Of a stretch of 64,000 nucleotides of DNA, positions 10,399 through 53,982 are shown in pieces. Both the position numbers and the translations under genes were made by a program. Origin of the DNA: Balneolaceae bacterium (GTDB lineage Bacteria > Bacteroidota > Rhodothermia > Balneolales > Balneolaceae); the NCBI GenBank assembly GCA_017640665.1, contig JAEPQE010000001.1, positions 124,001 through 188,000 on the forward strand. Reading direction: 5' to 3'. How positions within the stretch are numbered: the stretch's first letter is position 1; the number at the start of each line of letters is the position of its first letter. Below the pieces are notes generated by a model. The model saw nothing but the letters and a program-made list of their open reading frames with translations, had not been told where the DNA came from and did not search any database.

Positions 10399-10537
10399 AA
10401 AAGATTGCTTTGATTAAAAGAGTGCCAATGATACTAAGGGTACTGCTAAGCAACAAGGTGAGAATTTTTATCTTTTTAAAACTACTGCAAAAACAGTATC
10501 TATAGTTTTTGAAAAGCCCTTTTAAAATTACATCAAG

Positions 10538-13500
10538 ATGTTTAAAAAAATCACCACTCTTCTGCTTCTTTCACTTATAACCGGATTTGGCTTTGCTGCT
10601 GAATTTCATGAGTTCAAGGTTCTTGTATTTTCAAAAACCGTTGGATTCCGACACAGCTCTATTGACGAAGGCATTGCTGCTATTCAGCAATTGGCAACAG
10701 ATAATGGATTTATTGTGGATGCTACCGAAGACGCTTCTGCATTTACAGCAGAAAACCTCGCCCAATATGAGGCTGTAATTTTTCTAAGTACTACAGGTGA
10801 TATTCTTAATGCTAGTCAACAAGCGGCATTTGAGGGCTATATAAGATCAGGTGGAGGATTTGTAGGGATTCATTCTGCATCTGATACCGAATACGACTGG
10901 CCGTGGTACGGAGGACTAGTCGGAGCTTATTTTGATAACCACCCTCCCGGAACCACTCAGGCTACGATCGAAGTAGCTGATAAACTGCATCCTTCTACAG
11001 AACACCTACCCGACTACTGGGTGCGTACGGATGAATGGTATAATTTCAGGGAAAATCCTCGCGGTGATGTTCATGTACTTGCCACCTTAGACGAAGGAAC
11101 ATTTTCCGGTGGAACGATGGGCTACGATCATCCTATCGCATGGATGCACGACTACGATGGCGGTAGAGCCTGGTATACTGCTGGAGGACATACTGAGGCT
11201 AGTTATTCAGAGCCACTTTTCCTGGATCACATTTTGGGTGGGATTTTTTATGCCAGCGGAGATATCTCAGGAACGTTCGATGCATCCTCAGATGATAAAT
11301 ATCAGGTTACTGTGATTGATAACAATCCCATCAATCCTATGGCTTTAGCCGTTCTTCCAAATTATGATGTACTGTATATTGAAAGAGGAGGAACATTAAA
11401 GCTTCGTGAAAAAGCAACCGGAGTAGTTAAAGTAGCTGGAAACCTTAGCGTGGACTCGGGTCGCGAAGATGGCTTGATTGGAATTGTTCTCGATCCCGAT
11501 TTTGAAAATAATTCATGGGTCTATTTGTTCTATTCACCCTCTGCTGTTGTTGAGCAAAGAGTTTCCAGGTTCGATTTTGTAGATGGAGAAATAGATATAG
11601 ACTCCGAAAAGATACTCATGAATATTCCAATCCAAAGAGATGAGTGCTGTCATTCTGGGGGTGATTTAGAATTCGACAAAGATGGGAATCTGTTTATAGC
11701 CACCGGAGATAATACAAACCCATTTCAATCTGATGGATTCAATCCAATTGATGAGCGAACCGGCCGAGAGCCTTTTGATGCTCAGCGTACCTCAGCAAAT
11801 ACAAACGATTTAAGAGGAAAGATTCTACGCATTCACCCCGAAGATGATGGAACTTACACCATCCCCAATGGCAACCTGTTCGCTACTCCGGAAGAAGGTC
11901 TTCCCGAAATTTTTGTAATGGGAACACGAAACCCCTTCAGAATGGCGGTTAGTAAATATACCAATGAGTTAGTTTGGGGAGATGTAGGCCCCGATGCCAG
12001 AAATGTAGTTGGAAATCGTGGCCCGGTTGGCTACGATGAATTCAACCGAACCACTACCGGAGGCAACTTCGGATGGCCTTATTGCATCGCGAACAATCTG
12101 GCTTATAATGACTATAATGTTGAGACCTCAACATCAGGAGCAAAATTCGACTGTTCAAACCCGGTAAACGATTCCCCAAATAATACAGGAGCAACTAATC
12201 TTCCTCCTGCTCAGGAGGCCTGGCTGTACTACCCTTATGGGTTTTTTAATGAACGCCCGGAATTTGAATCAGATGGAGGAAGAACCGCTATTGGTGGAGC
12301 TTATTTCACTTATGATGCTTCACTTACCGAAACCGGAAACTTCCCTCAATATTATGATAGTACACTATTCATAATGGAGTGGGCAAGAAACTGGATTAGA
12401 GAGGTTCGTTACGATAAGGATGGAAACCTCCTTCAAATCAATCCTTTTTTGGATGACTTAGAACTGAAACGACCAATTGATATGGATTTCGGACCTGATG
12501 GAGCGATGTATATTATTGAATGGGGAACAGGATTTGGTGGAGGGAATGAAGATGCCAGAATCATCAAGATTGAGTATGTAGAAAATCTGGCAAACAGAAC
12601 CCCTACCGCTATTGCTAAGGCATCTATCACCAGTGGAAATGCCCCATTAGAAGTCGATTTCTTTGGAGATGAATCCTCAGACCCAGACAATGATGAACTA
12701 ACCTTCTCCTGGGATTTTGACGATGATGATATAGAAGATGCAAATACAGCAAATGCATCTTTCACGTATACAGAGAATGGAGCCTATATCGCAAAGTTAA
12801 CGGTCTCCGACCCGGATGGTGAAGTCTCTGTTGCTCAGGTTAATATTGTTGTGGGAAATACAGCTCCTGAAGTTACCATTGACCTGCCTTTGGAAGGTGG
12901 GTTTTATGAAGATGGAGACATCGTTGAATATTCCATTTCAGTAACTGATGCTGAAGAAGGAACTATTGGTGATGGAATCGATTGTGCAGATGTTGTCGCA
13001 GAACCGTCTATAGGTCATGATGATCATGCGCACGGTGCCGGCCCAACCAATGGATGCACGGGAGAATTTCTTACCGAACCTCATGGCGATGGACCTGATA
13101 ACGTATTTTATGTACTCAATGCCGAATACACAGATGATGGCGGCGGAGTTGGAGCATCCTTGAAGGGAAATGCGACCATCATATTAAATCAAAAGTTGAA
13201 GCAGGCAGAGCATGCTTTAGAAATAATTGATGCACAAACAGAGTCTACCGGGGATGCCTTAGGTGGAGGCTTAAACGTTGGGTTTATAAACCATAATTCA
13301 GCTCTAAGGTTTGGACCTATGAATTTTGAAGGCATTGATTTCTTAACTGTTCGATTCGCAACTCAACAAAACCCGGCGCTTGTTGAGATCCGGATTGGTA
13401 GTCCAACAGGTACACTTATTGGCAGTGTGCAAACAGAAATAACCGGGGCTTGGCAAACGTATGAATATTATACTGCTCCAATTGAAAACCCTGGTGGAAC

Positions 13501-14320
13501 ACATGACGTATTTCTCGTTTTTAAAACGTCACCTGGTCAACAAGGCTTAGGGAATATCAATTGGTTTGAAGTACATGGAAAAGGAATAGCTAAAGAAAAT
13601 GCAGATTCTCTTAAAGGCCTTGCTGCTACTTATTTCCCTAATAATGATTTCACTGGTACCCCGGTAGTTCGCCAGGATCCCATGATTGCCTGGAACTGGG
13701 CAAATACAAGTCCTGTGGAGAGTATCCCGGCAGATGGCTTTAGTGTTCGATGGGAAGGAGAAATTGTAGTGCCATCCACTACGAGATACACGCTATACTC
13801 TGCTCCAAAAAATGGAACGGCTAAAGTGTGGTTAAACGATGAACTTATACTAGAAGACACTGATTCAGCTCCTTTCGAATTACTGAAAAGTGATGAAAAA
13901 AATATTCTAAAGGTAGAATATGTGCATACAACCGGAGAAGCGGGAATGTTTTTACGATGGTCCGCTACTTCCCCTGAAAGTGCTATTCATGCAGACTACT
14001 TAGCTCCTGATACCGATGCACTTCTTATCCCGAACGAATTTGAAGAAGATATTCCTGCCGAATTTGAGCTGAAACAAAACTACCCGAATCCATTCAACCC
14101 AAGTACAGAAATAGCATTTAGTTTACCTAAATCAGGAAACGTGATGCTTAAAGTATTTAATGTTCTTGGCCAAACCGTGAACACTCTGGTTGATGGAAAC
14201 CTGAATCAAGGGACTCACAATGTGACATTTGATGCGAGTGGACTTTCCAGCGGAGTATATTTCTACCAGCTCGAATTTAATGGAGCCGTACTTTCCAGAA
14301 AGATGTTATTGATGAAATAG
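10538..14320 (+). CDS. Secreted ThuA / sugar-dehydrogenase propeller / PKD / CBM / PA14 fusion protein
   Basis: 1260 aa, exported. Order of parts: signal peptide (1-21); ThuA-like glutamine-amidotransferase-fold domain (~24-245, with KVLVFSKTVGFRHSSI and GGGFVGIHSASD); PQQ-type glucose/sorbosone-dehydrogenase beta-propeller (~260-680, with DGLIGIVLDPDF and HSGGDLEFDKDGNLF); PKD domain (~690-780, FSWDFDDDDIEDANTANASF); a His/Gly-rich segment (~835-860); a CBM6-like beta sandwich (~885-1025); a PA14-like domain (~1030-1160); and a type IX sorting domain starting NYPNPFNPSTEI (~1185-1260). Probably binds and oxidises or processes carbohydrate at the cell surface. ThuA-propeller fusions are common in this phylum; catalytic activity is not proven. 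A hairpin follows 1 base after the stop. Confidence 0.85.
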   Translation: MFKKITTLLLLSLITGFGFAAEFHEFKVLVFSKTVGFRHSSIDEGIAAIQQLATDNGFIVDATEDASAFTAENLAQYEAVIFLSTTGDILNASQQAAFEGYIRSGGGFVGIHSASDTEYDWPWYGGLVGAYFDNHPPGTTQATIEVADKLHPSTEHLPDYWVRTDEWYNFRENPRGDVHVLATLDEGTFSGGTMGYDHPIAWMHDYDGGRAWYTAGGHTEASYSEPLFLDHILGGIFYASGDISGTFDASSDDKYQVTVIDNNPINPMALAVLPNYDVLYIERGGTLKLREKATGVVKVAGNLSVDSGREDGLIGIVLDPDFENNSWVYLFYSPSAVVEQRVSRFDFVDGEIDIDSEKILMNIPIQRDECCHSGGDLEFDKDGNLFIATGDNTNPFQSDGFNPIDERTGREPFDAQRTSANTNDLRGKILRIHPEDDGTYTIPNGNLFATPEEGLPEIFVMGTRNPFRMAVSKYTNELVWGDVGPDARNVVGNRGPVGYDEFNRTTTGGNFGWPYCIANNLAYNDYNVETSTSGAKFDCSNPVNDSPNNTGATNLPPAQEAWLYYPYGFFNERPEFESDGGRTAIGGAYFTYDASLTETGNFPQYYDSTLFIMEWARNWIREVRYDKDGNLLQINPFLDDLELKRPIDMDFGPDGAMYIIEWGTGFGGGNEDARIIKIEYVENLANRTPTAIAKASITSGNAPLEVDFFGDESSDPDNDELTFSWDFDDDDIEDANTANASFTYTENGAYIAKLTVSDPDGEVSVAQVNIVVGNTAPEVTIDLPLEGGFYEDGDIVEYSISVTDAEEGTIGDGIDCADVVAEPSIGHDDHAHGAGPTNGCTGEFLTEPHGDGPDNVFYVLNAEYTDDGGGVGASLKGNATIILNQKLKQAEHALEIIDAQTESTGDALGGGLNVGFINHNSALRFGPMNFEGIDFLTVRFATQQNPALVEIRIGSPTGTLIGSVQTEITGAWQTYEYYTAPIENPGGTHDVFLVFKTSPGQQGLGNINWFEVHGKGIAKENADSLKGLAATYFPNNDFTGTPVVRQDPMIAWNWANTSPVESIPADGFSVRWEGEIVVPSTTRYTLYSAPKNGTAKVWLNDELILEDTDSAPFELLKSDEKNILKVEYVHTTGEAGMFLRWSATSPESAIHADYLAPDTDALLIPNEFEEDIPAEFELKQNYPNPFNPSTEIAFSLPKSGNVMLKVFNVLGQTVNTLVDGNLNQGTHNVTFDASGLSSGVYFYQLEFNGAVLSRKMLLMK

Positions 14321-14321
14321 A

Positions 14322-14353
14322 AAAAGCCTCAGGATTAAAGTCCTGAGGCTTTT
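14322..14353. terminator. Intrinsic terminator after the ThuA fusion gene
   Basis: Perfect 13-bp stem AAAAGCCTCAGGA / TCCTGAGGCTTTT with a six-base loop, directly after the stop codon. T-runs occur on both sides (TTTT on plus, TTTTT on minus), so it can work in both directions. Before the island was inserted it would also have faced transcription leaving tRNA-Ile. Confidence 0.8.
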
Positions 14354-14388
14354 GAAATTTGTAATTTGCTGTTTAAGATTCAACAAAA

Positions 14389-14410
14389 GTGGGCCCAGAG
14401 GGACTTGAAC
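14389..14410 (-). repeat. att-like site: 3' fragment of tRNA-Ile (distal end of island)
   Basis: 22 bases identical to 21194-21215, which are the 3' end of the intact tRNA-Ile(CAU) gene (discriminator base, 3' acceptor strand and half of the T arm). The identity stops at 14410, inside the T arm, so this copy is not a tRNA gene. A direct repeat of a tRNA 3' end 6.8 kb from the intact tRNA is the standard footprint of tyrosine-recombinase integration. Confidence 0.85.
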
Positions 14411-14442
14411 ATAATTATCTATCGATATCAAAACAACAAGAA

Positions 14443-15333
14443 TTATTTATTAACATAATTGTCTAAACACCCAGGTTTTACCACTTTTTGTATTTTTGTA
14501 TCTTTGCCAAAAATTGCAAAACTTATTATATCCTCTTTTTTGATTACAACTTCACAGCCAATGGTTTTCTTTTCGATTTCTTTGATCAACCATTTTCTCA
14601 TTATTTCTTGTAAGTAAGTTATTTCTGGGTCGAACCCTTGAATTGTTGCAATCAAAGAAAGCTTGTTATTATCACTTTTTTCCTTTTTGAATGCAGTATA
14701 AAATCCATATTTGAAAATTCTTGACCAAATCAAAGGATGTACAAGTTTCATATTTTCGAAACTTATGTGTATTTCGGTTGTTCGAAAGTGCCTGTCTAAC
14801 TCTGATAATTCAATCATATCTATGGATTCAAGGTTTAATTTATTTGGCGCTTCGTTTAGTTTTATTGAATCTCCCTTTGGTCTCAGAGCTATTCTGTTAT
14901 AAACATCCTCTAACTCTAAATAACCATCAATCGCTCTTTCCTCAATCCATTCAACACCTTCCTCATAAAGTTTAATTAATTTCTCAAATCTTTTATCCGT
15001 AAAGTTTCCAGAATACTTACAAGTTGCATGTGCTGTTGGGGCTCCAAATTTTTTTGGATTCAGCAGTATGCTTATAATCTGATCAACTTCGTTATCAGGT
15101 AAACTTATTTTCGGGAGGTTTCCTTCAATTTGTTCCTTAGAAGGAAGTATAAAGTTCTCCCATGTAAGTCGTAAGTCTTGTGATTTAATAAAAGGATTAA
15201 ATAAATCAGTTAGCTCATCAAAATTTCCGTTAAGATCGAAATGGAGATGTACATATTTTGTATGATCCCCCTTAATAACAGATTTATACTTAGGATCGAT
15301 TTGAGCTTTGGGAATTAAATTGTGTTGTGTCAT
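14443..15333 (-). CDS. Island protein of unknown function, 296 aa
   Basis: Not recognised. Soluble, mixed charged and aromatic sequence with no signal peptide or membrane segment. Distinct stretches are YVHLHFDLNGNFDELTDLF near the N-terminus, FGAPTAHATCKYSGNFTDKRFEKLIKLYEEGVEWIEERAIDGYLELEDVY in the middle and a Lys/Glu-rich C-terminal half. It is the only island gene on the minus strand and is divergent from the seven-gene operon across a 96-bp shared promoter region; its stop lies 33 bases from the island end. Divergent placement would fit a regulator or partner of the operon, but no DNA-binding motif is visible. The start is the ATG at 15333. Confidence 0.7.
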   Translation of the reverse strand: MTQHNLIPKAQIDPKYKSVIKGDHTKYVHLHFDLNGNFDELTDLFNPFIKSQDLRLTWENFILPSKEQIEGNLPKISLPDNEVDQIISILLNPKKFGAPTAHATCKYSGNFTDKRFEKLIKLYEEGVEWIEERAIDGYLELEDVYNRIALRPKGDSIKLNEAPNKLNLESIDMIELSELDRHFRTTEIHISFENMKLVHPLIWSRIFKYGFYTAFKKEKSDNNKLSLIATIQGFDPEITYLQEIMRKWLIKEIEKKTIGCEVVIKKEDIISFAIFGKDTKIQKVVKPGCLDNYVNK

Positions 15334-15352
15334 ATCAGGTATAAAATAGAGA

Positions 15353-15366
15353 TAAACTGTAGTTTA
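15353..15366. promoter_or_regulatory. Inverted repeat in the divergent island promoter region
   Basis: TAAACT-GT-AGTTTA, a 6-bp inverted repeat with a two-base spacer, between the divergent island genes. It could be an operator shared by both directions. The shortness and AT-richness make chance plausible. Confidence 0.3.
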
Positions 15367-15429
15367 CATTAGCTATTCTTTGCTAGATTTATTTTTTTCA
15401 ATTAATTAATAGCCAAAAAATTTTATCTA

Positions 15430-16686
15430 ATGAGTAAATTACGTTTTGAAGAACTGGAAATATACTTCATATATGGATATGTAAATTATAATCCCAATAA
15501 TGATAAAGAATATATAGATGAGGCACCTTACACATGGGCCCCTTTATATAGCTCAATAACAGGCGAGAATAAATTTTATAGAAGAAAGATAGATAAAAGA
15601 ACAGTTTCACTACAAAGAATAGAGGAAGGTATAGAATGGAGTTTAGGAGAAGTTGATATTACGACTACAGACATTCATCAAAAAAAAGGAGGGGCGGGAG
15701 TACTTACATTTAAAATTAACGTGGGAGTGAGAGATAAAGAATATAATTTGAATGATTTGTTTAACATTTTAAATCTTTTACCAAGAACATCCTTTGCTTC
15801 TGAAAATAATTACACAAGGATTTTAGAAGCTGATAATCAAGGTGATTTAGATGTACTCGAAAAGTTGTCCAAAGTTGAAGGTTGGGAAGATTACAGCGAC
15901 ATATTCAAATTATTTGCAACGGTTTTATTGTCAAATCATGAGTCATGGAACGAATTGATTTGCCCAGACAAAAAAAACTTATACAGATACAGAGAGAATG
16001 GAATTGACCCACAAGTACCGCATGTACTGGTTTATGCAAAAATAGAAAGAGATAGATATGAACAAAATTTTCTAAAAAAAAATAATACCCATGAGTTTAA
16101 TAAAGAAATAGCTGGAATTTTAGGGAGATGGATGAAGGTGCAAAATATAGACCAAGTTAATACCGATTACTATAAATATTACCCCGAAAATGATGAAGTC
16201 ATCACCCGAGATGGTAAGTTTATCAGCCGATATCGGGATAGCAAAAGCTTCATTCTACTTTCTTCACTCCTAACACTCGATATAACCAGTACTTATAATT
16301 ATGAGGTTCCTGCTCAGCTTGTCACTAAGAACTCGATCCTGACCTACCTCCAATATTCAAGATTAAGAATACATCATGCATTATGGCTTAATAAGGCTTT
16401 GGATTCGATTGTAAATACCCTGAAGGAAAATAAATCTGAGGACATCAAAACAATAACATTGAAGGAGGAGATAAATACGTTAAAAATTTACTTTGCCAAT
16501 CATCAAAATAATCCGTTGGCTTACATGTGGGATACTGTTCTAGGTCAGGAAATTCCTCGTTTAAATTTTCACCAAAGGATTGAAGACCTTGAGAATACTA
16601 TAAAGAGCAAGATGAATTTAATTGATGGTATAATCAGTAATGTGATGACCATTCAATCTTCAAGAAGATATTTTGGAGATGAATGA
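15430..16686 (+). CDS. Island operon gene 1: unknown 418-aa soluble protein
   Basis: Not recognised with confidence. No signal peptide or membrane span. The N-terminal half contains GGAGVLTFKINVGV followed by NLNDLFNILNLLPR, and the C-terminal ~100 residues form a helical region ending in RLNFHQRIEDLENTIKSKMN and IISNVMTIQSSRRYFG. This combination (a G-x-G-x-L-T-F strand early, long helices with an IxSxR-like end late) loosely recalls soluble CorA-like domains, but the CorA membrane helices and GMN motif are absent, so this is only a hint. First gene of the operon, ATG start 96 bp from the divergent gene. Its stop overlaps the next start (ATGAATGA). Confidence 0.75.
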   Translation: MSKLRFEELEIYFIYGYVNYNPNNDKEYIDEAPYTWAPLYSSITGENKFYRRKIDKRTVSLQRIEEGIEWSLGEVDITTTDIHQKKGGAGVLTFKINVGVRDKEYNLNDLFNILNLLPRTSFASENNYTRILEADNQGDLDVLEKLSKVEGWEDYSDIFKLFATVLLSNHESWNELICPDKKNLYRYRENGIDPQVPHVLVYAKIERDRYEQNFLKKNNTHEFNKEIAGILGRWMKVQNIDQVNTDYYKYYPENDEVITRDGKFISRYRDSKSFILLSSLLTLDITSTYNYEVPAQLVTKNSILTYLQYSRLRIHHALWLNKALDSIVNTLKENKSEDIKTITLKEEINTLKIYFANHQNNPLAYMWDTVLGQEIPRLNFHQRIEDLENTIKSKMNLIDGIISNVMTIQSSRRYFGDE

Positions 16687-17494
16687 ATTTAGATTTGAGT
16701 TTATAAATGACATTTTACAGAAGTGTGATATTCAGGATAAGCTTAAAAATAACATAAAACAGTTTATACCATTAGTTCATAGAAGAAGGAACTTGGTGAG
16801 AGATACTAGAAATTATTTTCTTGGCCAAAAAACCCAACTAGATCAAAATACAAAAAATCAAAACGATGGCCAGCCATTGGGACCACATCCACTCTTTTAC
16901 AAACATTCCGTTTATTTTACGCAAGAAGTTCAAAAAATAGATCCTTTAATAGAGCTAAAAAAAGAACTAGATCAATTTAACGTAATTATCAACTGTTGGA
17001 ACAAAATATGTGAGAACATTGAGAAGGGGACTGACAATAGTAATAATTTTAATGATCTTGAAGTTTTTTTAGATATTGCTTTTGTAGATAATGATGAAGA
17101 GAAAATTTTTAAGAAAAAAGAAGGGTATATAAAAAACCACCATTACGATAGGATATATTCAAAAAACCTTAATGATGAAACCCTTACACTCTTAAATAAG
17201 CATTTCAATGCAAAGAAATTTGATTTATTAAGAAATTGGTATCAATACACTGATAATACTTATCTAGATTTAGAGAAAAGAATTTTATGTATCTGCAGAG
17301 ATTATAATGATGTAAAGGTCAACCATTTTTATTTTAGAAGACTAAAAAGATTTCTTAAAAGATTAGAATATATACCTGATAATAAAAAGCTCAATAAGTG
17401 GAAAAATGAATTTTTAGGTGATTTCGAATTTCAATGGGTAATTAAAGATATTTCATCAGCGTTTGGTTATGAAAACACTTACGAATCGAATTAA
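16679..17494 (+). CDS. Island operon gene 2: unknown 271-aa protein
   Basis: Not recognised. Soluble, rich in Lys, Asn, Asp and aromatic residues, with no signal or membrane segment. Notable stretches: FIPLVHRRRNLVRDTRNYFLG near the N-terminus, LGPHPLFYKHSVYFTQEV in the first third, and a basic helical part FYFRRLKRFLKRLEYIP near the C-terminus. The ATG at 16679 overlaps the previous stop by 8 bases (ATGAATGA), which fits translational coupling; an in-frame TTG 6 bases upstream is also possible. Its tight coupling to gene 1 suggests the two products act together. Confidence 0.7.
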   Translation: MNEFRFEFINDILQKCDIQDKLKNNIKQFIPLVHRRRNLVRDTRNYFLGQKTQLDQNTKNQNDGQPLGPHPLFYKHSVYFTQEVQKIDPLIELKKELDQFNVIINCWNKICENIEKGTDNSNNFNDLEVFLDIAFVDNDEEKIFKKKEGYIKNHHYDRIYSKNLNDETLTLLNKHFNAKKFDLLRNWYQYTDNTYLDLEKRILCICRDYNDVKVNHFYFRRLKRFLKRLEYIPDNKKLNKWKNEFLGDFEFQWVIKDISSAFGYENTYESN

Positions 17495-17855
17495 GTATCA
17501 TAAATTAGATAGTGAAAAGTGTATTTATACTTGGGAAAGTATTTGGGTCATACCTACATCACTAGCTCCAAACTTATGTATACTTTTTTTAGATAATAAA
17601 CTTAATTTAGGTTTCTCTATTGCTATTCTTATTATGATAATATGGTTACTTATAAGTGCTATAAGAATTCATAATTTATCACGAGCATTAGTAGACCTTA
17701 AATCAAAAGGTAATTCTATGAGTGAAATTAGGGGGGTGTATCAAAAAAAGGCCCATCTTACTCATATTTTTTTTGTTTTGCTTCCTTCAATTGTTTTTTT
17801 TTCAATACTAATCGGCAATTATTTATATCAAAACTATGAATTCCCCAGCTTTTAA
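17469..17855 (+). CDS. Island operon gene 3: small multi-span membrane protein, 128 aa
   Basis: Not recognised. Two strong hydrophobic segments (LGFSIAILIMIIWLLISAI and THIFFVLLPSIVFFSILIGNYLY) and a weaker one near residue 25-40, separated by a basic loop with SRALVDLKSKGNSMSEIRGVYQKK. Likely an inner-membrane protein with two or three spans. The ATG at 17469 lies inside the end of gene 2 (26-base overlap); a TTG 6 bases upstream is the alternative. It sits between the soluble unknown proteins and the ABC importer, so it may connect them at the membrane. Confidence 0.65.
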   Translation: MKTLTNRIKYHKLDSEKCIYTWESIWVIPTSLAPNLCILFLDNKLNLGFSIAILIMIIWLLISAIRIHNLSRALVDLKSKGNSMSEIRGVYQKKAHLTHIFFVLLPSIVFFSILIGNYLYQNYEFPSF

Positions 17856-18816
17856 TTATTTAAGACAGCATATAATTTTATTAGCCTCCATTATATCAGT
17901 TTTTCTAGTTTTTTTTTCATCATGTGATAAATCAGAAGAACGAATTAGAATCGGTTACTTGCCCTCACTTGCAGCGAGCCAAATGTATGTGGGAATTGCA
18001 GAAGGGTATTTTGAGGAGGCTGGCATTGAAACTGAAATTACAGAGATTTACAGCGGGCCTGAGTTAATCAATGCCTTACAGTCGAATTCTATTGATATCG
18101 CGTTTGGCATTACACCACCTCTTATCTCTGCAAGGAGCACAGGAATAAATGTAAAGAGTATCATTGGTGCAACTTATGACAGTAAAGAAATAAGCGAACA
18201 CAGATTAATGTTGCCACCGGACTCAGAAATTACTAAAGGTGAAGATTTGAGAGGTAAAACAATTGCTGTGGTAGCTGAAGGGACATCAGATTATTTTGGG
18301 CTACTACAATATTTAAGTGCATACAATATTTCAGAGAGTGAAGTAGAAATAATTCAAACCCCTCACCCTGAAATGATCTTTGCTATTTCAAGTAATTCTG
18401 TGGATGCTGCTGCTGGGATAGAGCCCTTTATCACTACGGGAGAACTATCAGGTCAAACAAGAACTTTCGAATATTATTATCCTGAATTTCAAACCGAAGT
18501 TGGCACATATTTAGCCATGAATGAATTTATTCAAAATAACCCGGAGCTGGTGAAAAAATTTCAGGGAGTTATAATTAAGGCAACCGAATTTATTAATAAC
18601 AATGAAGAGGAATTCAGGGGGTTATTGCCAAAGCTCGAAAATTACGGCGTCAAATTTAAAATTAGTGAGAGCGTAGCTGATTCAGTTACAATAATGGGTT
18701 TTAAGGAACATATTACTTCCGAAGGGTTGAGCAGAATTCAAGAGCAGTTATTAGCCGGAGGGTATTTAACTCAAGAAATTGATTTGTCAGCATGTATATT
18801 GCCTTATAATGAGTAA
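17836..18816 (+). CDS. Island operon gene 4: NitT/TauT-type substrate-binding lipoprotein
   Basis: Periplasmic binding protein of the SsuA/THI5/NMT1-like class, anchored as a lipoprotein: signal ...IISVFLVFFSSC with the lipobox Cys near residue 30, followed by DKSEERIRIGYLPSLAASQMYVGIAEGYFEEAGIETEI, the classic N-terminal pattern of the class. Further landmarks are INALQSNSIDIAFGI, DLRGKTIAVVAEGTSDYFGLLQYL and NSVDAAAGIEPFI. Relatives bind sulfonates, taurine, nitrate, thiamine precursors or riboflavin; the ligand here cannot be told. It overlaps gene 3 by 20 bases and gene 5 by 8 (ATGAGTAA). Confidence 0.85.
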   Translation: MNSPAFNYLRQHIILLASIISVFLVFFSSCDKSEERIRIGYLPSLAASQMYVGIAEGYFEEAGIETEITEIYSGPELINALQSNSIDIAFGITPPLISARSTGINVKSIIGATYDSKEISEHRLMLPPDSEITKGEDLRGKTIAVVAEGTSDYFGLLQYLSAYNISESEVEIIQTPHPEMIFAISSNSVDAAAGIEPFITTGELSGQTRTFEYYYPEFQTEVGTYLAMNEFIQNNPELVKKFQGVIIKATEFINNNEEEFRGLLPKLENYGVKFKISESVADSVTIMGFKEHITSEGLSRIQEQLLAGGYLTQEIDLSACILPYNE

Positions 18817-19582
18817 AAAACAAATTAAAGTTGAATCTCTTTCGAAATCTTTTAACGTAAGTGGCTCAGATTTCCAGGTATTTAGTAATCTCAATTTTCA
18901 GCTTCCACCAGGTAAAATTACAAGCATAATAGGTCCAAGTGGTTGTGGAAAAACAACGTTACTCGAAATTATTGCAAATTTGAAAGCCCCTACCACTGGT
19001 AAGATTTTTTTTGATGGGTTCGAAAACCACCCGGAAATCAACCCTTTATTAATTTTTCAGGAATATTCTAAATCACTATATGAATTTTACAATGTAGAGG
19101 AAAATATTCTGATTGCACTTGAAAGTCTTAACATCAGCCAAGCAAACAAAGAATTTAGAACGAATAAAGCGCTAAATGCTATTAATCTCCAAGATTTCAA
19201 GGACTTATATCCCTGGCAACTATCTGGTGGGATGCAACAGAGGGTGTCATTTGCAAGGGCGATTGCAATGCGACCACCAGTTATTTTACTTGATGAACCA
19301 TTTGGTTCCGTAGATGCTTATACTAGATATCAGTTAGAGGATACCTTACTAGAAATCAAAGAGAAATTTGAATTAACATGCGTATTTGTAACCCATGATA
19401 TAGAATCTGCTATATATTGTGCTGACCAATTAATTATTCTTTCAAAGAGGCCTGCCTCAATATTAAGTGTAATGGGTATCACATTTAATGAAAGCAGGTC
19501 TCAATCCGTTACAAAATCGAGCGACCAATTTATGAAGTACCGTCGTGACATCTATGAAATACTTTTTGAAGATGCTGGATAA
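18809..19582 (+). CDS. Island operon gene 5: ABC transporter ATPase (TauB/SsuB-like)
   Basis: Cytoplasmic ATPase of the importer. Walker A GPSGCGKTT, Q-loop LLIFQEYSKSLYEF, signature LSGGMQQRVSFARAIAMRPPVILLDEPF with Walker B, D-loop GSVDAYTR and H-loop VTHDIESAIYCADQ are all intact. The ATG at 18809 (MSKKQIKVES) overlaps the lipoprotein stop as ATGAGTAA; upstream starts would add an unrelated leader. Length (257 aa) is normal for the NitT/TauT family. Confidence 0.92.
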   Translation: MSKKQIKVESLSKSFNVSGSDFQVFSNLNFQLPPGKITSIIGPSGCGKTTLLEIIANLKAPTTGKIFFDGFENHPEINPLLIFQEYSKSLYEFYNVEENILIALESLNISQANKEFRTNKALNAINLQDFKDLYPWQLSGGMQQRVSFARAIAMRPPVILLDEPFGSVDAYTRYQLEDTLLEIKEKFELTCVFVTHDIESAIYCADQLIILSKRPASILSVMGITFNESRSQSVTKSSDQFMKYRRDIYEILFEDAG

Positions 19583-20342
19583 AATTTTTAAAAAATTAAG
19601 ACCTTTTTTATTTCCCTTAATACTAATCTTGTTATGGGAAATTTCTTCTTTTTTAGTTGGGAATTATTCAAATAGATATAATTTTATATCTCCAACAAAA
19701 GAGATAATTGAGGCAATTTATCATTTATTCTCCAGCACTGTGATACTGCCTTACCTATTTGACACCTTATGGAGAACAATTTTTTCTTTTTCCATCTCTG
19801 GAGTCTTTGGTTTGCTTCTTGGGATGTATTTAGGATTACAGAAAAGAGCAGAAATTATATTCTACTCAACTTTTGATGCTATTAGGTCAATCCCTCCAAT
19901 TGCTTTACTTCCTTTCTTAATCTTACTATTTGGAATTGATGACAATTTGAAAATTGTATTTATATCATTCGGTGCTATTTGGCCAATATATATAAATACA
20001 TACACAGCAGTGAAGAATATCGAACCAATTTATTTAAAAGTTGCTGATAATTTGAATCTTAGTAGTACCATAAGGCTTAGAAAAGTAATATTCCCCTCCA
20101 TATTACCTGGTTTTTTTTCCGGTTTAAAAATTAGCCTTTCATTGGCTTTAATATTATCCATTGTAGTTGAAATGCTTACAGGGAATACAGGATTAGGTTG
20201 GTATCTGAATTACTCCAAACGGAACTTTAACTATGCAGAGATGTATTCTATGATAATAATTATTGGTTTACTAGGTTGGATTATAAATTATTTATTTAAA
20301 AAAATTGAAAGGAAAATCATTTTTTGGAATTATGAAAGTTGA
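19572..20342 (+). CDS. Island operon gene 6: ABC transporter permease (TauC/SsuC-like)
   Basis: Membrane permease of the importer, about 256 aa with six hydrophobic segments. The EAA-type coupling loop is visible as NIEPIYLKVADNLNLSSTIRLRKVIFPSILPGFFSGLKISLSLA, the usual site of contact with the ATPase. The segment DAIRSIPPIALLPFLILLFGI is characteristic of TauC/SsuC permeases. The ATG at 19572 overlaps the ATPase stop by 11 bases; ATG 19554 and GTG 19545 are alternatives with longer overlaps. Confidence 0.88.
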   Translation: MLDKIFKKLRPFLFPLILILLWEISSFLVGNYSNRYNFISPTKEIIEAIYHLFSSTVILPYLFDTLWRTIFSFSISGVFGLLLGMYLGLQKRAEIIFYSTFDAIRSIPPIALLPFLILLFGIDDNLKIVFISFGAIWPIYINTYTAVKNIEPIYLKVADNLNLSSTIRLRKVIFPSILPGFFSGLKISLSLALILSIVVEMLTGNTGLGWYLNYSKRNFNYAEMYSMIIIIGLLGWIINYLFKKIERKIIFWNYES

Positions 20343-21084
20343 CACGTTTAGAACTACTTTAGAAAAAAATAAATATAGATTAGAATCTGGGACAGAAATC
20401 TTTATTGAAGAGCATATTAATGTTTTTAATCCACACCCTATCAGTTTACTACTAGCAGATAGTGTAGCGGTAAATCAAAATATGAAGATACTTGATTTAT
20501 GCACTGGTTCTGGAATTATCGCTCTTGCGATTGCAAAAAAATTCAATACACGAAATATTACAGCAACTGACATATCTAAAGAAGCAATAAGAAATGCCAT
20601 GAGAAACTCAAAAATCAATAAAGTAAATGACAACATTGATTTTAGAATTGGAAATCTTTTTGAACCAGTAGATAATCTTAAGTTTGATCTTATTGTTTCA
20701 AACCCTCCATGTATGCCGTTTCCTAAATATGGGCATTATCGTAGCAAAGAATTTAGACTTGCAGTAGATGGCGGAGAAATCGGTGATATCTATTACAAAA
20801 ATATTATTAAGTCTGCTAAAACTTACTTAAAAAAAAATGGGAGATTAATTTTACCAATTCCCAAATGGACTGATTGGAAATCAATAATTAAGATTTTTAA
20901 AAATGAATTTGACGAGATCAAATTAATTTCAAGAGGTGCAGTTAGGTTCTTTTTGGAAGATAATTTAGGTCATTTTAAGAGAAACTTAGAATCATTGAAT
21001 GATAGAGGCATTGTAGACTACCAAAGAATTGACTCTGATTTCTATTTTGAAGTACCTATCTATGAAGGTAAAGTGAACTTTTAA
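20332..21084 (+). CDS. Island operon gene 7: HemK/PrmC-like class I methyltransferase
   Basis: SAM-dependent methyltransferase, 250 aa. Motif I is MKILDLCTGSGIIALAIAKKF, the acidic end of strand 2 is ITATDISKEAIRNA, and motif IV is FDLIVSNPPCMPFP, the NPP[YFC] pattern of enzymes that methylate amino or amide nitrogens (PrmC, HemK, N6-adenine and some rRNA enzymes). Cys replaces the usual Tyr after NPP. The N-terminus RLESGTEIFIEEHINVFNPHPIS resembles the substrate-recognition segment of small-molecule or protein Gln methylases. The target is unknown; a partner in the same operon or the imported compound are both possible. The ATG at 20332 overlaps the permease stop by 11 bases. Confidence 0.82.
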   Translation: MKVDTFRTTLEKNKYRLESGTEIFIEEHINVFNPHPISLLLADSVAVNQNMKILDLCTGSGIIALAIAKKFNTRNITATDISKEAIRNAMRNSKINKVNDNIDFRIGNLFEPVDNLKFDLIVSNPPCMPFPKYGHYRSKEFRLAVDGGEIGDIYYKNIIKSAKTYLKKNGRLILPIPKWTDWKSIIKIFKNEFDEIKLISRGAVRFFLEDNLGHFKRNLESLNDRGIVDYQRIDSDFYFEVPIYEGKVNF

Positions 21085-21133
21085 TCTATAATATTTGGCG
21101 ATAATAAAATAGAAAGGAATTCTAATCAATGAA

Positions 21134-21163
21134 AAAACCCAATACGCAAATGTATTGGGTTTT
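21134..21163. terminator. Bidirectional terminator between island operon and tRNA-Ile
   Basis: Perfect 12-bp stem AAAACCCAATAC / GTATTGGGTTTT with loop GCAAAT. On the minus strand it is followed by six Ts and lies ~30 bases past the tRNA-Ile 3' end, so it best serves the tRNA; on the plus strand it can end the seven-gene operon. Confidence 0.75.
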
Positions 21164-21193
21164 GAATGTAGCTATTCGTGATTTCACAAATAT

Positions 21194-21215
21194 GTGGGCC
21201 CAGAGGGACTTGAAC
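21194..21215 (-). repeat. att-like site inside tRNA-Ile 3' end (proximal end of island)
   Basis: Second copy of the 22-bp direct repeat (other copy 14389-14410). It covers the 3' acceptor strand, discriminator and part of the T arm, so integration restored the tRNA. Confidence 0.85.
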
Positions 21216-21268
21216 CCCCGACCAATCGATTATGAGTCGACTGCTCTAACCAACTGAGCTATGGGCCC
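21195..21268 (-). tRNA. tRNA-Ile (CAU anticodon, lysidine-type), island attachment site
   Basis: Full cloverleaf: acceptor GGGCCCA/TGGGCCC, D arm GCTCAGTTGGTTAGAGC, anticodon arm GTCGA-CTCATAA-TCGAT with anticodon CAT, T arm GGGGG-TTCAAGT-CCCTC, discriminator A, CCA not encoded. The anticodon stem-loop and variable region (GACTCATAATCG then TTGGTCG) match the tRNA-Ile2 pattern, whose C34 is converted to lysidine to read AUA, rather than tRNA-Met or initiator tRNA. The 3' 22 bases are repeated at 14389-14410. A TAACTTTG box lies ~36 bases upstream (21304-21311). Confidence 0.9.
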
Positions 21269-45630: not shown

Positions 45631-45718
45631 GCCGCAGTGGTGGAATTGGTAGACACGTTGGACTTAAAATCCAATGGATATTTAAATGTCCGTGCCGGTT
45701 CGAGTCCGGCCTGCGGTA
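45631..45718 (+). tRNA. tRNA-Leu (UAA anticodon)
   Basis: Class II tRNA: acceptor GCCGCAG/CTGCGGT (last pair G-T), anticodon arm TTGGA-CTTAAAA-TCCAA with anticodon TAA, long variable arm (TGGATATTTAAATGTCC), T arm GCCGG-TTCGAGT-CCGGC, discriminator A. CCA is not encoded (ACCG follows). Confidence 0.95.
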
Positions 45719-45721
45719 CCG

Positions 45722-45756
45722 AAAGCCCTAAGTATAATTATACTTGGGGCTTTTTT
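45722..45756 (+). terminator. Terminator of tRNA-Leu
   Basis: Long stem AAAGCCC-T-AAGTATAA / TTATACTT-G-GGGCTTT followed by a T-run, four bases after the tRNA. Confidence 0.88.
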
Positions 45757-45883
45757 GTTTAAGAATATAATCTGAGTTTAAAGAGTCTAAGCCGATTTCC
45801 GTGATACTTGCTTTCAGTACTATAGAAAAAAATTGATCTATATTGATGGGAGCTTAAATCAGAGGTATAAAACTGTATGAAAT

Positions 45884-46252
45884 TCAGTTCGCTTTTTCCA
45901 GAATATGCTTAAGGGTTTCACATATTTTAAGCCTTTCTCTATTGCTGAGGGTAACTTCGAAATCTCCCTGATCATTCGCACCTATTTTAATTACATAATC
46001 AATATTCACAATTATTGATTTATGAATTTGGTAAAAAATAGAATCATCAAGCTTAGGTAAAAGTGATTTTAATGTAATTCTGTAGATATACTTTTTTTTA
46101 TGCTGAGTAAAAATATGAACATTATTTCCTGAATCCTCTATGTATACTATATCTTTGAAGTTAACAATGTAGAACTGCTTATCTATTCTAATAACCAGTC
46201 TGTCTTTAAGAGTATAATCATTAAGTGGAGTACCTGATTCTCCTGAAGTCAT
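45884..46252 (-). CDS. Stand-alone LytTR DNA-binding protein
   Basis: 122 aa. A single LytTR domain: FKDIVYIEDSGNNVHIFTQHKKKYIYRITLKSLLPKLDDSIFYQIHKSIIVNIDYVIKI shows the typical beta strands and the F-x-Q-I-H-K-S-x-I-V-N motif. No receiver domain is fused, so control comes from elsewhere or from another gene of the operon. It is the last gene of a four-gene leftward operon (48734 to 45884) and begins 11 bases after the phosphatase gene. Confidence 0.88.
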   Translation of the reverse strand: MTSGESGTPLNDYTLKDRLVIRIDKQFYIVNFKDIVYIEDSGNNVHIFTQHKKKYIYRITLKSLLPKLDDSIFYQIHKSIIVNIDYVIKIGANDQGDFEVTLSNRERLKICETLKHILEKAN

Positions 46253-46263
46253 ATTAACTTCAA

Positions 46264-46899
46264 CTAGTAATTGATATGAATCAGATTGCCTTTACCCAGT
46301 TCAGTACCAGTAATTATAAATATGTCGTTGTAATCATCTTCATCAAGCTGTGGCGGAAATTTTCGCTCTCCAATCAAACTGTTTACAACAAATGGCGTGG
46401 TATTTGAGTGCCCACTCATAACTATAGTTTTTCCGGCATATTTATCGTAAAAATCGAAGGGTAATTGCCTTAAATCTTTGGGTTCATAATTTTCAATCTC
46501 CAAATCATTCATCCTGGCTAGTTCTTCAACGGTTTGCGACGTGCGCTTAAAAGGAGTCGAAAAAATATGATCAATCGTTAAATTAGACAGTAGCAAAGCT
46601 AGTCTTTGAGCTCGCTCAATTCCTTCATCAGAAAGCGGAGGATCCTGACTTCTATCATCCAGTTTTTCTGCATGCCTTATCAGGATAACTGTTGTGGGTT
46701 GACTTTCCTTTTTAATTACTATAGGAACGGGGGATTCTTTACTTCCACTTTCTATCTTACCTTCCTGAGGAAGCAGAACTATCTTTGTGGGTGGGGTCTC
46801 TTTTGCTTTTTCTTGTGCGATAGAAAACTCAATGTTTAGTAACACTATAAGTGAAACTATGAACAAACTTTTTGATACTTTTTTCATATTGGAACTCAT
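46264..46899 (-). CDS. Exported histidine-phosphatase (phosphoglycerate-mutase-like) protein
   Basis: 211 aa. A signal peptide (KKVSKSLFIVSLIVLLNIEFSIAQ) sends it to the periplasm. Branch-1 histidine phosphatase motif TVILIRHAEKLDD supplies the phosphoaccepting His; LSDEGIERAQRLALLL, IFSTPFKRTSQTVEEL (Arg) and the second His in VMSGHSNTTP complete the active site. Substrate unknown; SixA-like or general phosphomonoesterase activity is possible. Start ATG 46899; ATG 46887 would also fit. Confidence 0.85.
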   Translation of the reverse strand: MSSNMKKVSKSLFIVSLIVLLNIEFSIAQEKAKETPPTKIVLLPQEGKIESGSKESPVPIVIKKESQPTTVILIRHAEKLDDRSQDPPLSDEGIERAQRLALLLSNLTIDHIFSTPFKRTSQTVEELARMNDLEIENYEPKDLRQLPFDFYDKYAGKTIVMSGHSNTTPFVVNSLIGERKFPPQLDEDDYNDIFIITGTELGKGNLIHINY

Positions 46900-46923
46900 A
46901 ATTAATCTAATTCTATTTGATTG

Positions 46924-47847
46924 TTATAGTTTGATAACCCTTAACCTTCTTCTCGTACTTTGACCACCATCTAATACATAAAGTCTTTTACCATCTTCAG
47001 ACACTGCTATCCCATTTGGAACATTAAATTGAGCTACTTCTTTGTCACCATCTTTGAACCCTGCCACTCCAGTGCCTGCCAAAGTGCTTACAACTCCATC
47101 AGCATCTACCACGAAAACCTTATTATGGTGATTTCCTGACGCATAGATCTTTCCAGAGTAATAAGCTAAATGACCCGTTGCATAGTAACCGTCTGAGGAC
47201 CCCAGAGTAGCAAAAAGGGTAATTTCTTTCTCTTTGCTTACTTTATAAATTCGCCCTGACGTTGTATTAGCTATAAAGAGATTATCATTTTCATCTATGG
47301 CTAAACCAATGGGTGCGAAAATCCCATTTCCCTCGATATATACTTCTGACTCTCCAGAAGAAGTGATTTTATAAATCTTGTTATTTTCATTTTGATAAGG
47401 ACCATAAATTGAAACAAAAAAATTCCCTTCACTGTCTTGAACTAGTCCTGCTGAACCATCTGTGATAGAACCAAATCTAGATACATCTCCATTATCAGGA
47501 TTTGTAACATAAAGCTGTTCTTCCTGAGTGTAGGTTGTACTGTAAAGTTTACCATCCGCTGCTTTAATAGTTGTAATGGGCGCCGGAATTGAGCTTACAA
47601 TCTCAGATACTTCTCCGTTTTCAGGATCAATTGAGTAGACTGCAGATCCTGAAAATCCACTTGAAGCGTAAATCACCCCATCTTTTAATGTGATCCCGTC
47701 TATAGGAATTGCTCTACTCAACTCAATAGAATACACTTCCTGTTCGGTGACATCCGTGACAGGTTCTTCAATAACAGTATCCATTTCATTATCTGAAGCA
47801 GTATTGCATGAGGTAGCTATAACTATGATAAATAAGAGCTGTTTCAT
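46924..47847 (-). CDS. NHL/SMP-30-like propeller lipoprotein
   Basis: 307 aa; lipobox VIATSC at residues ~9-14 then an acidic linker. The body is a six-bladed NHL/SMP-30-like propeller (repeats around DGITLKDGVIYASSGF, GLVQDSEGNFFVSIYGP, GLAIDENDNLFIANTTSGRIYKV, GIAVSEDGKRLYVLDGG). It is a close paralogue of the next gene upstream, with blade-by-blade matching wording (IYGPFQNE versus IYGPYQNE, YATGHLAYYSGKIYASGNHHNK versus its counterpart). Its ATG overlaps that gene's stop by 4 bases. Confidence 0.85.
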   Translation of the reverse strand: MKQLLFIIVIATSCNTASDNEMDTVIEEPVTDVTEQEVYSIELSRAIPIDGITLKDGVIYASSGFSGSAVYSIDPENGEVSEIVSSIPAPITTIKAADGKLYSTTYTQEEQLYVTNPDNGDVSRFGSITDGSAGLVQDSEGNFFVSIYGPYQNENNKIYKITSSGESEVYIEGNGIFAPIGLAIDENDNLFIANTTSGRIYKVSKEKEITLFATLGSSDGYYATGHLAYYSGKIYASGNHHNKVFVVDADGVVSTLAGTGVAGFKDGDKEVAQFNVPNGIAVSEDGKRLYVLDGGQSTRRRLRVIKL

Positions 47848-48734
47848 TTTTTTATACTTTTAAGATTAATTATTCTCACGGAAGAGTTTCCCCCACCGCC
47901 CCCATTTACCACATAGAGTATTGTTCCATCATCATTAATTGCCATTCCATTGGGCACATTAAATGTGGCTTCTTCTAAATCACCGTCTTTATTTCCAGGT
48001 ATACCAGCTCCGACCAATACCGAAACCTCTCCCGTCTTTGAAATTTTAAAAATTTTGTGATGATGATTACCAGAAGCGTAAAAAACTCCATTTTTATATA
48101 CGATGTGACCTGTAGCAAAGTACCCTTCAGCAGCTCCCAGTTCTGCAAACGAACTTACTTTTCCGTTCTTATCAATTTTAAGGATGTTTCCATTTTTTGA
48201 ATTGGCAACAAACAATTCTCCTTTTTCATTGAAAACCAGCCCTATCGGAGCATCAATACCATTACCTTTAGCAAAGAGCTCAACCTTCCCGTCAGGAGAT
48301 ATTTTGTAGATCTCATCTGACTCGTTTTGAAAAGGACCATAGATCGAAGTATAAACATTACCTTCGTCATCCATGGCAATCCCCGCGGCTCCACCTTTAG
48401 TATTTGCTACTCTTGATACTATTGTGTCTGCAGAAATTTTAAAAACAGCTCCTTCAGCTGTATATGTTGATACATATAAATTGTTCTCTTCGTCAAACAC
48501 CCCGGCAATACCTGCAAGTATGTTATCAGCTACTAGATGTACCTGACCATTCTTAAGATCAATCTGGTTTACTTGTTTTCCCCCATATCCGCTAAAAGTG
48601 TATAGCTTACCTTCTTTAAACGTAATTCCATCTATCGGTAAGCTTTTTTCCAGATGAAGTGTCGTTACTTCCTGAGCTATACCTACAGAAGCTAAAATGA
48701 GAATGAGTAAAACTGAACGTATTAACTTTATCAT
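47844..48734 (-). CDS. Exported NHL-repeat propeller protein (paralogue of neighbour)
   Basis: 296 aa with a signal peptide (MIKLIRSVLLILILASVGIAQ) rather than a lipobox. NHL repeats such as GIAMDDEGNVYTSIYGP, GLVFNEKGELFVANSKNGNILKI and GMAINDDGTILYVVNGG build a propeller. It arose with the downstream gene by tandem duplication, one copy now soluble and one lipidated. First gene of the operon ending with the LytTR protein. Ligand unknown. Confidence 0.85.
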   Translation of the reverse strand: MIKLIRSVLLILILASVGIAQEVTTLHLEKSLPIDGITFKEGKLYTFSGYGGKQVNQIDLKNGQVHLVADNILAGIAGVFDEENNLYVSTYTAEGAVFKISADTIVSRVANTKGGAAGIAMDDEGNVYTSIYGPFQNESDEIYKISPDGKVELFAKGNGIDAPIGLVFNEKGELFVANSKNGNILKIDKNGKVSSFAELGAAEGYFATGHIVYKNGVFYASGNHHHKIFKISKTGEVSVLVGAGIPGNKDGDLEEATFNVPNGMAINDDGTILYVVNGGGGGNSSVRIINLKSIKK

Positions 48735-48938
48735 AGTCGTTGACTTTTTGAAACTATGATAAGATTTAGCAGCTCTTATTCTTAATTATATAGAGTTATT
48801 AATCTCAAAGAAATGTTAATGAGCCCATTAATGAATAATAGAGTTTAGCGGCCTTTGTTAAGCTTTGATATTAAACGATAACACTTCTTAAGACTAGTTA
48901 ATTATAAGTTCTTTCAAAACATAATTAACATCGTTTCT

Positions 48939-50834: not shown

Positions 50835-50836
50835 TC

Positions 50837-51529
50837 CTATTTTAGTACCAACAATTTGAATCCATAACCTCTAATACTTTCAATTTTTATGGAATCATCA
50901 TGTGATAAATATTTCCTTAATTTTGATATAAAAACATCCAGGCTTCTACTAGTATATATATCTGATCTTTCCCAGAATTGAATTAGAATATCTTCCCGGC
51001 TAACTCTTTCATTTAAATTTCTACAAAGATATTGTAATACATCGGTTTCTCTTGTTGTAAGTTCAAATGCTTCCTTAGGGTGTGTCAACGCTCTTCTGTT
51101 TACCAAAAACTTATACTCTCCTATACTGTAATCATTATTTTCTGAATTATTGAGTTGATTCTTTACCCTTCTAAGAACCGCTACAATTCGTAGATAGAGT
51201 TCTTCCAACGAAAACGGTTTCAAAACGTAATCATCACATCCTATTTTAAAACCTTCAACTATATCCTTCTTTTGTTCTTTTGCAGTCAGAAATATTATCG
51301 GGGTAGATTTATCGCTTATTCTGATTTTTCTGGCCAAAGAAAACCCATCCAACTTTGGAAGCATGATATCCAAAATGATCAAATCTGGTTTGCCTGAATA
51401 ATAAGCATCGTAACCTTCCATTCCGTCTGCAACTGAAACTAAACTATACCCCTCAGACTCTAAACTTTCTTCTATTAAATAGTTCAGCGATTTATCATCC
51501 TCAACAAGCAGTATTTTTGTGTCTTTCAT
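50837..51529 (-). CDS. OmpR-family response regulator
   Basis: 230 aa. Receiver domain with acidic pocket LLVEDD, phosphoacceptor Asp in LIILDIMLPKLDGF, Thr/Lys in FLTAKEQ and VLKPFSLEEL; C-terminal winged helix with FELTTRETDVLQYLCRNLNERVSREDIL and SRSLDVFISKLRKYLS. Forms a pair with the kinase immediately upstream on the same strand (7-base gap). Targets unknown. Confidence 0.93.
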   Translation of the reverse strand: MKDTKILLVEDDKSLNYLIEESLESEGYSLVSVADGMEGYDAYYSGKPDLIILDIMLPKLDGFSLARKIRISDKSTPIIFLTAKEQKKDIVEGFKIGCDDYVLKPFSLEELYLRIVAVLRRVKNQLNNSENNDYSIGEYKFLVNRRALTHPKEAFELTTRETDVLQYLCRNLNERVSREDILIQFWERSDIYTSRSLDVFISKLRKYLSHDDSIKIESIRGYGFKLLVLK

Positions 51530-51536
51530 ATACCGT

Positions 51537-52859: not shown

Positions 52860-52923
52860 ATTCTGTTGCGTTTATTTAGATAAACTTTATCATTTTTAAC
52901 GTTCATGATCACTAACTTTAAGA

Positions 52924-53667: not shown

Positions 53668-53982
53668 AATCCTAACAAAACTGATTTTTTCTTAACAATT
53701 GTTAAGTGCGGAAAAGAGGATCTACCCGTTCGATTCTCGAAAAACTCATCTTTTAGTTCTGATGAAAATAACATACGATTGTTTTTACCGAACTTAAATT
53801 TCTAACATGGAGCCCTGCAATACTAAACGTAGAATATTCCAAACAAGCTGTATCTTAAAAGGTGATAAACTTGGTCTTAGCACAAATCATTTTTCTTTGT
53901 AGTGAAAATTTCGTTTTGTCAATATTCATGGTATTATTAAGGGTTGAGGGGCAATGTATAAAGGAATGACTAACGATTAGAA
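53668..53982. other. 315-bp intergenic region with a 16-bp palindrome
   Basis: No gene supported. It contains the perfect palindrome CTTAACAATTGTTAAG at 53691-53706, 24 bases past the lipoprotein stop; no T-run follows, so it is not a terminator and may be a binding site. A 31-codon ATG frame at about 53807 has no supporting features. Confidence 0.5.

Follow-up and report, generated by a model that had tools for sequence, protein, structure and literature searches.

The closest described relatives of the locus considered here are, on the one hand, ATP-binding cassette (ABC) importers of the NitT/TauT type (SsuABC, TauABC, and NrtABC) and, on the other, tRNA-integrated islands and helper-dependent "hitcher" elements, the latter discussed in PMC11389934. 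We analyzed a 64-kb stretch of contig JAEPQE010000001.1 from a Balneolaceae bacterium (positions 124,001 to 188,000; hereafter the window, in whose coordinates positions are given), in which a seven-gene operon encoding a predicted importer of this type, a HemK-like S-adenosylmethionine (SAM) methyltransferase, and three orphan proteins lies within an acquired island bordering on a tRNA-Met 3′ end. We put at about even (a probability of roughly 0.5) the reading of this locus as a horizontally acquired 6.8-kb island with an uptake-and-modification operon as its main cargo. The features are, in the order of their coordinates:

14389 to 14410, plus strand: left boundary repeat (attL-like), an exact 22-nt copy of the tRNA-Met 3′ end
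14443 to 15333, minus strand: D296m, a 296-aa orphan divergent from the operon, with no recognized family
15430 to 16686, plus strand: A418, a 418-aa orphan, no hydrophobic segment found
16679 to 17494, plus strand: B271, a 271-aa orphan, no hydrophobic segment found
17469 to 17855, plus strand: C128, a small protein with two hydrophobic segments
17836 to 18816, plus strand: NMT1/SsuA-like substrate-binding protein (SBP) with a lipoprotein-type N terminus (Pfam NMT1)
18809 to 19582, plus strand: NitT/TauT-type ABC ATPase (Pfam ABC_tran)
19572 to 20342, plus strand: SsuC-like permease (BPD_transp_1), five hydrophobic segments by a simple scan
20332 to 21084, plus strand: HemK-like SAM methyltransferase (MT) with an SNPPC motif (Pfam MTS)
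21134 to 21163, plus strand: 12-bp hairpin, a possible terminator between the operon and the tRNA gene, its 3′ arm ending in UUUU
21194 to 21268, minus strand: intact tRNA-Met(CAT), its 3′ end (21194 to 21215) being the right boundary repeat (attR-like)

The boundaries are defined by an exact 22-nt direct repeat (14389 to 14410 and 21194 to 21215) found in a repeat search; at up to one mismatch, the 22-mer has two copies in the 3.8-Mb assembly, both at the island ends, compared with none for a reversed control pattern. The 6.8-kb element between the repeats comprises the seven-gene operon and the divergent D296m gene, leaves the tRNA gene intact, and is foreign in composition, with a guanine-plus-cytosine (GC) content of 27 to 37% (1-kb windows, 15 to 21 kb) versus 38 to 48% at 8 to 14 and 21 to 28 kb. 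At the thresholds used, it has no counterpart in the related genomes that were searched: among 92 genomes of the family, A418 (E of 0.001) and the SBP (E of 1e-20) had no match outside the window's own genome. Two genomes of the same genus are collinear with the window on either side of the island, with different DNA between the collinear blocks; approximately 3.2 kb takes the place of window positions 10464 to 21193 in one (G040) and approximately 14 kb that of positions 13770 to 21193 in the other (G039), and in the corresponding regions of both the 22-mer is present solely as the tRNA copy. The acquired setting that a preliminary description of this DNA had proposed for the operon is supported; that description lacked the D296m gene, the 22-nt boundary repeats, and the hairpin after the last gene.

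A related genome (G036) has an island of approximately 30 kb bounded by the same tRNA end, in which a tyrosine recombinase gene adjoins the tRNA, and the two copies of the tRNA end agree there over at least 42 nt. Taken with the tRNA-end repeats of the window, this second island at the same tRNA end argues that the window holds an integrated element at a site that such elements use. No integrase family was matched by any of the eight products of the island (Pfam and NCBIfam, E of 1); the genome holds five PF00589 matches, all outside the island, and the G036 tyrosine recombinase has one match in the window's genome (E of 1e-5), at 30% identity over approximately 160 residues. Since no integrase of its own is recognizable, the island probably moved by means of a recombinase supplied in trans, or its integrase has since been lost; both are possible.

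The G036 stretch, which spans L033:754-775 to L034:15197-15218, also codes for a phage O-type replication protein and, at its other end, for a type II secretion/pilus-like gene run, named by eye from the starts of open reading frames (ORFs). In G039 (L031:1603-11412), P450-like and ferredoxin-like genes (by eye), a sugar-kinase-like gene (from weak NCBIfam matches), and low-GC ORFs replace the island at the same tRNA-Met.

On the plus strand, seven ORFs with ATG starts take up the whole of 15430 to 21084, and all six of their junctions overlap, by 8 (ATGAATGA), 26, 20, 8 (ATGAGTAA), 11, and 11 nt, exactly as had been reported; were the permease to start at its earliest possible ATG, it would overlap the ATPase gene by 29 nt instead of 11. 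When one crude ORF caller was run over the whole window, overlapping same-strand junctions numbered 6 of 6 within the operon versus 2 of 28 for the other pairs, which agrees with the earlier view of one tightly packed unit; the corresponding hypergeometric chance of approximately 2e-5 is descriptive only, the operon having been chosen for its overlaps. Six consecutive overlaps stand far above the local background and therefore favor coupled expression. The hairpin downstream (−16 kcal/mol, z of −4.28, 0 of 200 shuffles equally good) is absent from the list returned by a consensus scan, and the 30 promoter-like matches of that scan are no excess over shuffled sequences (mean, 34.9).

Each importer component exceeds its Pfam gathering cutoff (the SBP with PF09084 at 84.4 versus 20.5, the ATPase with PF00005 at 100.9 versus 25, and the permease with PF00528 at 84.7 versus 26.4), so that the full NMT1, ABC_tran, and BPD_transp_1 complement of a NitT/TauT-type importer is present. 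MT likewise passes with MTS (72.5 bits versus 23) and has the SAM methyltransferase domain with an NPPx motif; the pairing of a NitT/TauT-like importer with a HemK-like methyltransferase, first named by inspection, is upheld by these scores. From their sequences, the SBP, ATPase, and permease are predicted to form an importer of the NitT/TauT/SsuABC type: the SBP resembles SsuA, the ATPase SaoA, NtrD, and TauB, and the permease SsuC. The best solved relatives of the SBP are a taurine-binding protein, a putative exported protein, a nitrate transport protein, and an aliphatic-sulfonate-binding protein, and a cysteine behind its hydrophobic N terminus presumably marks it as a lipoprotein. The finer NCBIfam families were not reached (the SBP scored 126.1 versus 163.5 for TIGR01728 and 55.7 versus 304.25 for the taurine SBP; the permease scored 132.8 versus 347 for SsuC; ntrCD stood at 174.5 versus 291.8 and SaoA at 184 versus 360), and the importer is assigned to none of the sulfonate, taurine, nitrate, and SaoXAP subfamilies.

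We take the SNPPC of MT to be the NPPx motif of HemK/PrmC-type methyltransferases. MT lies below every listed NCBIfam cutoff (PrmC, 108.1 versus 199.1; hemK_fam, 105.8 versus 115.5; HemK2/MTQ2, 83.4 versus 87) and is assigned to none of these named members. A search of genome contigs confirmed at least 576 relatives, of which 80 were kept; in a tree of 37 rows that took in 29 of these 80 loci, MT forms a long branch that is separate from the PrmC-length rows and does not group with the row of a Synechococcus protein. The latter is its best plasmid match and is encoded in a sulfonate-import/arylsulfatase cluster on a plasmid of Synechococcus elongatus, where no relatives of the orphans were found by blastp, the sole search made there. 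Four other plasmid matches of MT were opened; the two annotated ones have no importer, and two are unannotated. Of the 81 MT-related loci examined (the 80 kept plus L014), 6 had a match to the ATPase.

As judged by their sequences, A418, B271, C128, and D296m are orphans, no convincing relative having been found in the searches made. Searches of Pfam, NCBIfam, PADLOC, and PHROGs gave no convincing match for any of them (C128 was searched in PHROGs as C127, which lacks its first residue), and the three products first described as unrecognized indeed belong to no family at the Pfam gathering level. Against the PDB, A418 and B271 have no match at an E of 5 and D296m has two, at an E of 0.43 and 0.9 only. 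A418, B271, and D296m have no match in plasmids and phages, and pattern scans of IMG/VR found no relative of any of the four; a pattern scan of genome contigs, which reaches close relatives only, was made for A418 and not for B271 or D296m, and found none. We read as chance the few matches in genomes of the phylum, namely, one further match of A418 across five stop codons (394 genomes; E of 9e-4), four of B271 over 43 to 85 residues (385 genomes; E of 0.004 to 0.009), and two of D296m (228 genomes; E of 0.007 to 0.009). C128 was searched least: no relative was found, but genomes, plasmids, and phages were not searched. Single-sequence AlphaFold2 models of A418 and B271 had mean predicted local distance difference test scores of 33.0 and 36.4 and were not used.

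We suggest that small-molecule uptake followed by methylation, with lineage-specific helpers, is the simplest function for this gene set. The island would have integrated at the tRNA-Met 3′ end, probably through a recombinase acting in trans or an integrase lost since, with the operon as its main cargo and the operon's products made as one block. In the periplasm, a lipid-anchored SBP would bind a small molecule, which the permease and ATPase would import together, and the HemK-like MT may then methylate the molecule or a product of it, while A418, B271, and C128, the last a small membrane protein, could be partners specific to the lineage that help to use, detoxify, or sense it. We count in favor of this reading the exact repeats at both ends, the low GC content, the lack of matches to A418 and the SBP in other genomes of the family, the collinear flanks, the G036 island, the Pfam scores of the importer proteins, the location of the best plasmid match of MT in a sulfonate cluster, the Nostoc cassettes with the closest SBPs found (see below), and the six overlaps.

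The preliminary description had envisaged a recurring system, which the comparison of loci does not support. At an E of 1e-15, the SBP matched 11 of 394 phylum genomes, its own included, and reading of the ten others extended to as much as approximately 8 kb on each side, less at contig ends. Judged by eye, seven of these loci have matches to the ATPase and permease as well, and three look like lone SBPs; because four of the ten come from one genus, the independent cases are fewer than ten. The closest SBPs found, at 38% identity, come from two Nostoc plasmids of the mobilizable type, each of which carries an SBP-ATPase-permease cassette, and these SBPs form a clade with the window SBP (support, 100/98). 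The Nostoc permease (L130:3357-4231 and L131:14174-14764) is annotated as a shorter hypothetical protein, and the match of the window permease starts upstream of the annotated start. None of the ten phylum loci (tblastn, E of 1e-3) and neither of the two Nostoc loci encodes a relative of A418, B271, C127, MT, or D296m. In IMG/VR, scans gave no match for MT and one for the ATPase; the latter (L018) and an SBP fragment (L132) are without matches to the other partners. The listed importer matches also gave ten annotated plasmid regions, which are nine separate loci and were picked by hand rather than at random; none of the nine has a methyltransferase inside the importer operon, and in one a methyltransferase gene lies on the opposite strand, at the margin of the region.

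These counts favor chance assembly, in which an ordinary importer operon, an unrelated methyltransferase, and the orphans, found nowhere else, share one transcript without a common function. The preliminary description held that a chance neighborhood would be indicated by importer relatives without the unknown proteins and by unknown proteins widespread without the importer; the former were found, but the latter were not. Chance assembly is a serious rival because no partner besides the importer and, loosely, the methyltransferase has been seen twice; we nevertheless think it doubtful, given the series of six overlaps, a methyltransferase of another class that follows the importer in one phylum locus (L141), and a methyltransferase in the Synechococcus cluster. 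Importer and methyltransferase thus occur together in three unlike places (the window, L141, and the Synechococcus cluster), but this association is a lead rather than a result, because the analysis set out from the window, whose proteins, used as queries, led to the other two among few loci.

Several observations weigh against an uptake-and-modification operon. The SBP, ATPase, and permease are below the cutoff of every NCBIfam family listed for them, the ATPase list comprising the best 25 of 202 matches, and no ligand can be named. The link between MT and the Synechococcus methyltransferase is at approximately 30% identity, without support in the tree, and PrmC-length proteins equal or exceed the latter in bits against MT. 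None of the 80 kept MT-related genome loci has an SBP or permease match nearby, and the Nostoc cassettes are without a detectable MT relative. Approximately seven of the nine annotated plasmid loci have a catabolic gene nearby (by eye), and the window operon has none. Finally, one genome of the family (G013) carries a weaker SBP match (8e-16).

L141 also bears on a different explanation, that of an importer-derived sensing or conflict module in which the SBP and ABC parts would detect or pull in a signal and MT with A418, B271, and C128 (C128 as effector) would act in defense or competition. In L141, the SBP, ATPase, and permease genes are followed by that of a 604-aa membrane protein, which has three hydrophobic segments and ends in a SAM methyltransferase domain at its C terminus, and the locus (L141:489-16901, in genome G163) lies in a defense island with HsdR, AbiEi/AbiEii, a weak HigB-like match, a PD-Lambda-2-like partner, and a retron-type reverse transcriptase. 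At a distance of approximately 5 kb from the Nostoc cassettes, a NACHT NTPase or a COR-domain protein is encoded, toxin-antitoxin or PIN genes are also close by, and the orphan genes of the window themselves ride on a tRNA-site element. Set against this, plasmids are generally rich in neighbors of the defense and toxin types, the L141 SBP falls outside the window-Nostoc clade, and the L141 methyltransferase domain is of a class other than that of MT. Single-sequence hhalign gave a probability of 11% for MT with the 604-aa protein and of at most 1.2% for the orphans with Nostoc hypA/hypC, the 604-aa protein, and each other. No convincing defense family was found for the orphans, the best match being A418 with PDC-M11B in PADLOC (E of 0.0089; 14.5 bits). 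We regard a sensing or conflict module as unlikely.

PADLOC labels point to one particular defense assignment, the methylation-associated defense system (MADS): MT matches mad2 at 1e-27 and the ATPase matches mad3 at 1.6e-30. The same mad3 model (PDLC04135) is, however, matched by two ATPases of Synechococcus sulfonate-transport clusters (5.8e-30 and 1.3e-30) and by the Nostoc ATPase (1.5e-24), and mad2 (PDLC04134) is matched by the Synechococcus methyltransferase (2.6e-18, weaker than MT); the MT match covers positions 270 to 424 of 492. Because sulfonate-cluster ATPases of equal strength and a methyltransferase of lesser strength receive them, these labels are not evidence. Among the eight products, the only further mad match is that of the mad8 model, to the same ATPase as mad3. 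We rejected membership in MADS, to which we attach almost no probability, since the ATPase match is equaled by transport genes and the specific mad gene set is not present. More generally, single matches to PDLC04135 and PDLC04134 mislead, as sulfonate clusters have ATPases of ABC importers and HemK-like methyltransferases that these models hit.

The suggestion in the preliminary description that the operon is a defense module thus finds no direct evidence; weakened, it rests on neighborhood and is possible, kept alive by the importer and methyltransferase-domain protein of L141 in their defense island. A broader conjecture, which we consider quite improbable, is that mobile elements have recruited NMT1/SsuA-type importer cassettes and that these make up a family of modules for small-molecule sensing or conflict. 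The SBP and ABC parts would be paired with a SAM methyltransferase (separate in the window, membrane-fused in L141) or, as in Nostoc, with other cytoplasmic partners that change fast, and the operon described here, with A418, B271, and C128, would be one lineage-specific version. Among the titles listed by literature searches on importer-plus-defense combinations, the Synechococcus cluster, and tRNA-Met sulfonate islands, none dealt with a gene set of this kind.

Should the operon prove to be a module for uptake and modification, a small-molecule pathway would reside on a 6.8-kb island without a recognizable mobility enzyme; if the importer is the sensor of a conflict system, periplasmic binding proteins would join the parts list of mobile defense. 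Under either reading, a single locus makes four orphan proteins testable, and excision can be measured directly thanks to the clean boundary repeats. Elsewhere in the window, a tRNA-Leu gene (45631 to 45720, plus strand) is followed by a stretch of lower GC content (approximately 33 to 40%; region 45631 to 54000), possibly a second island.

In comparison with known systems, the operon shares with SsuABC, TauABC, and NrtABC an NMT1-type SBP, an ABC ATPase, and a BPD_transp_1 permease above the Pfam gathering scores but differs in staying below the listed NCBIfam cutoffs, in having no catabolic gene, and in that its importer is preceded by orphans and followed by a methyltransferase. The cluster on the plasmid of S. 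elongatus UTEX 3055 likewise combines importer genes with an MT-related methyltransferase of similar length (243 aa), which is approximately 30% identical to MT and has HPPA instead of NPPC, and it includes ssuD, an arylsulfatase, and a sulfatase maturase. The Nostoc plasmids pNsp_i and p057_D resemble the window in the order of SBP, ATPase, and permease genes, in having the closest SBP found, in their mobilizable type, and in the unknown proteins that flank the cassette, but they have no detectable relative of A418, B271, D296m, or MT, and their ATPase is only 23% identical to that of the window, in a match with a large difference in length. Although it measures 6.8 kb and matches no integrase family, the island resembles tRNA-integrated islands and hitcher elements (PMC11389934) in being not found in relatives, in its low GC content, and in its direct repeat of the tRNA 3′ end.

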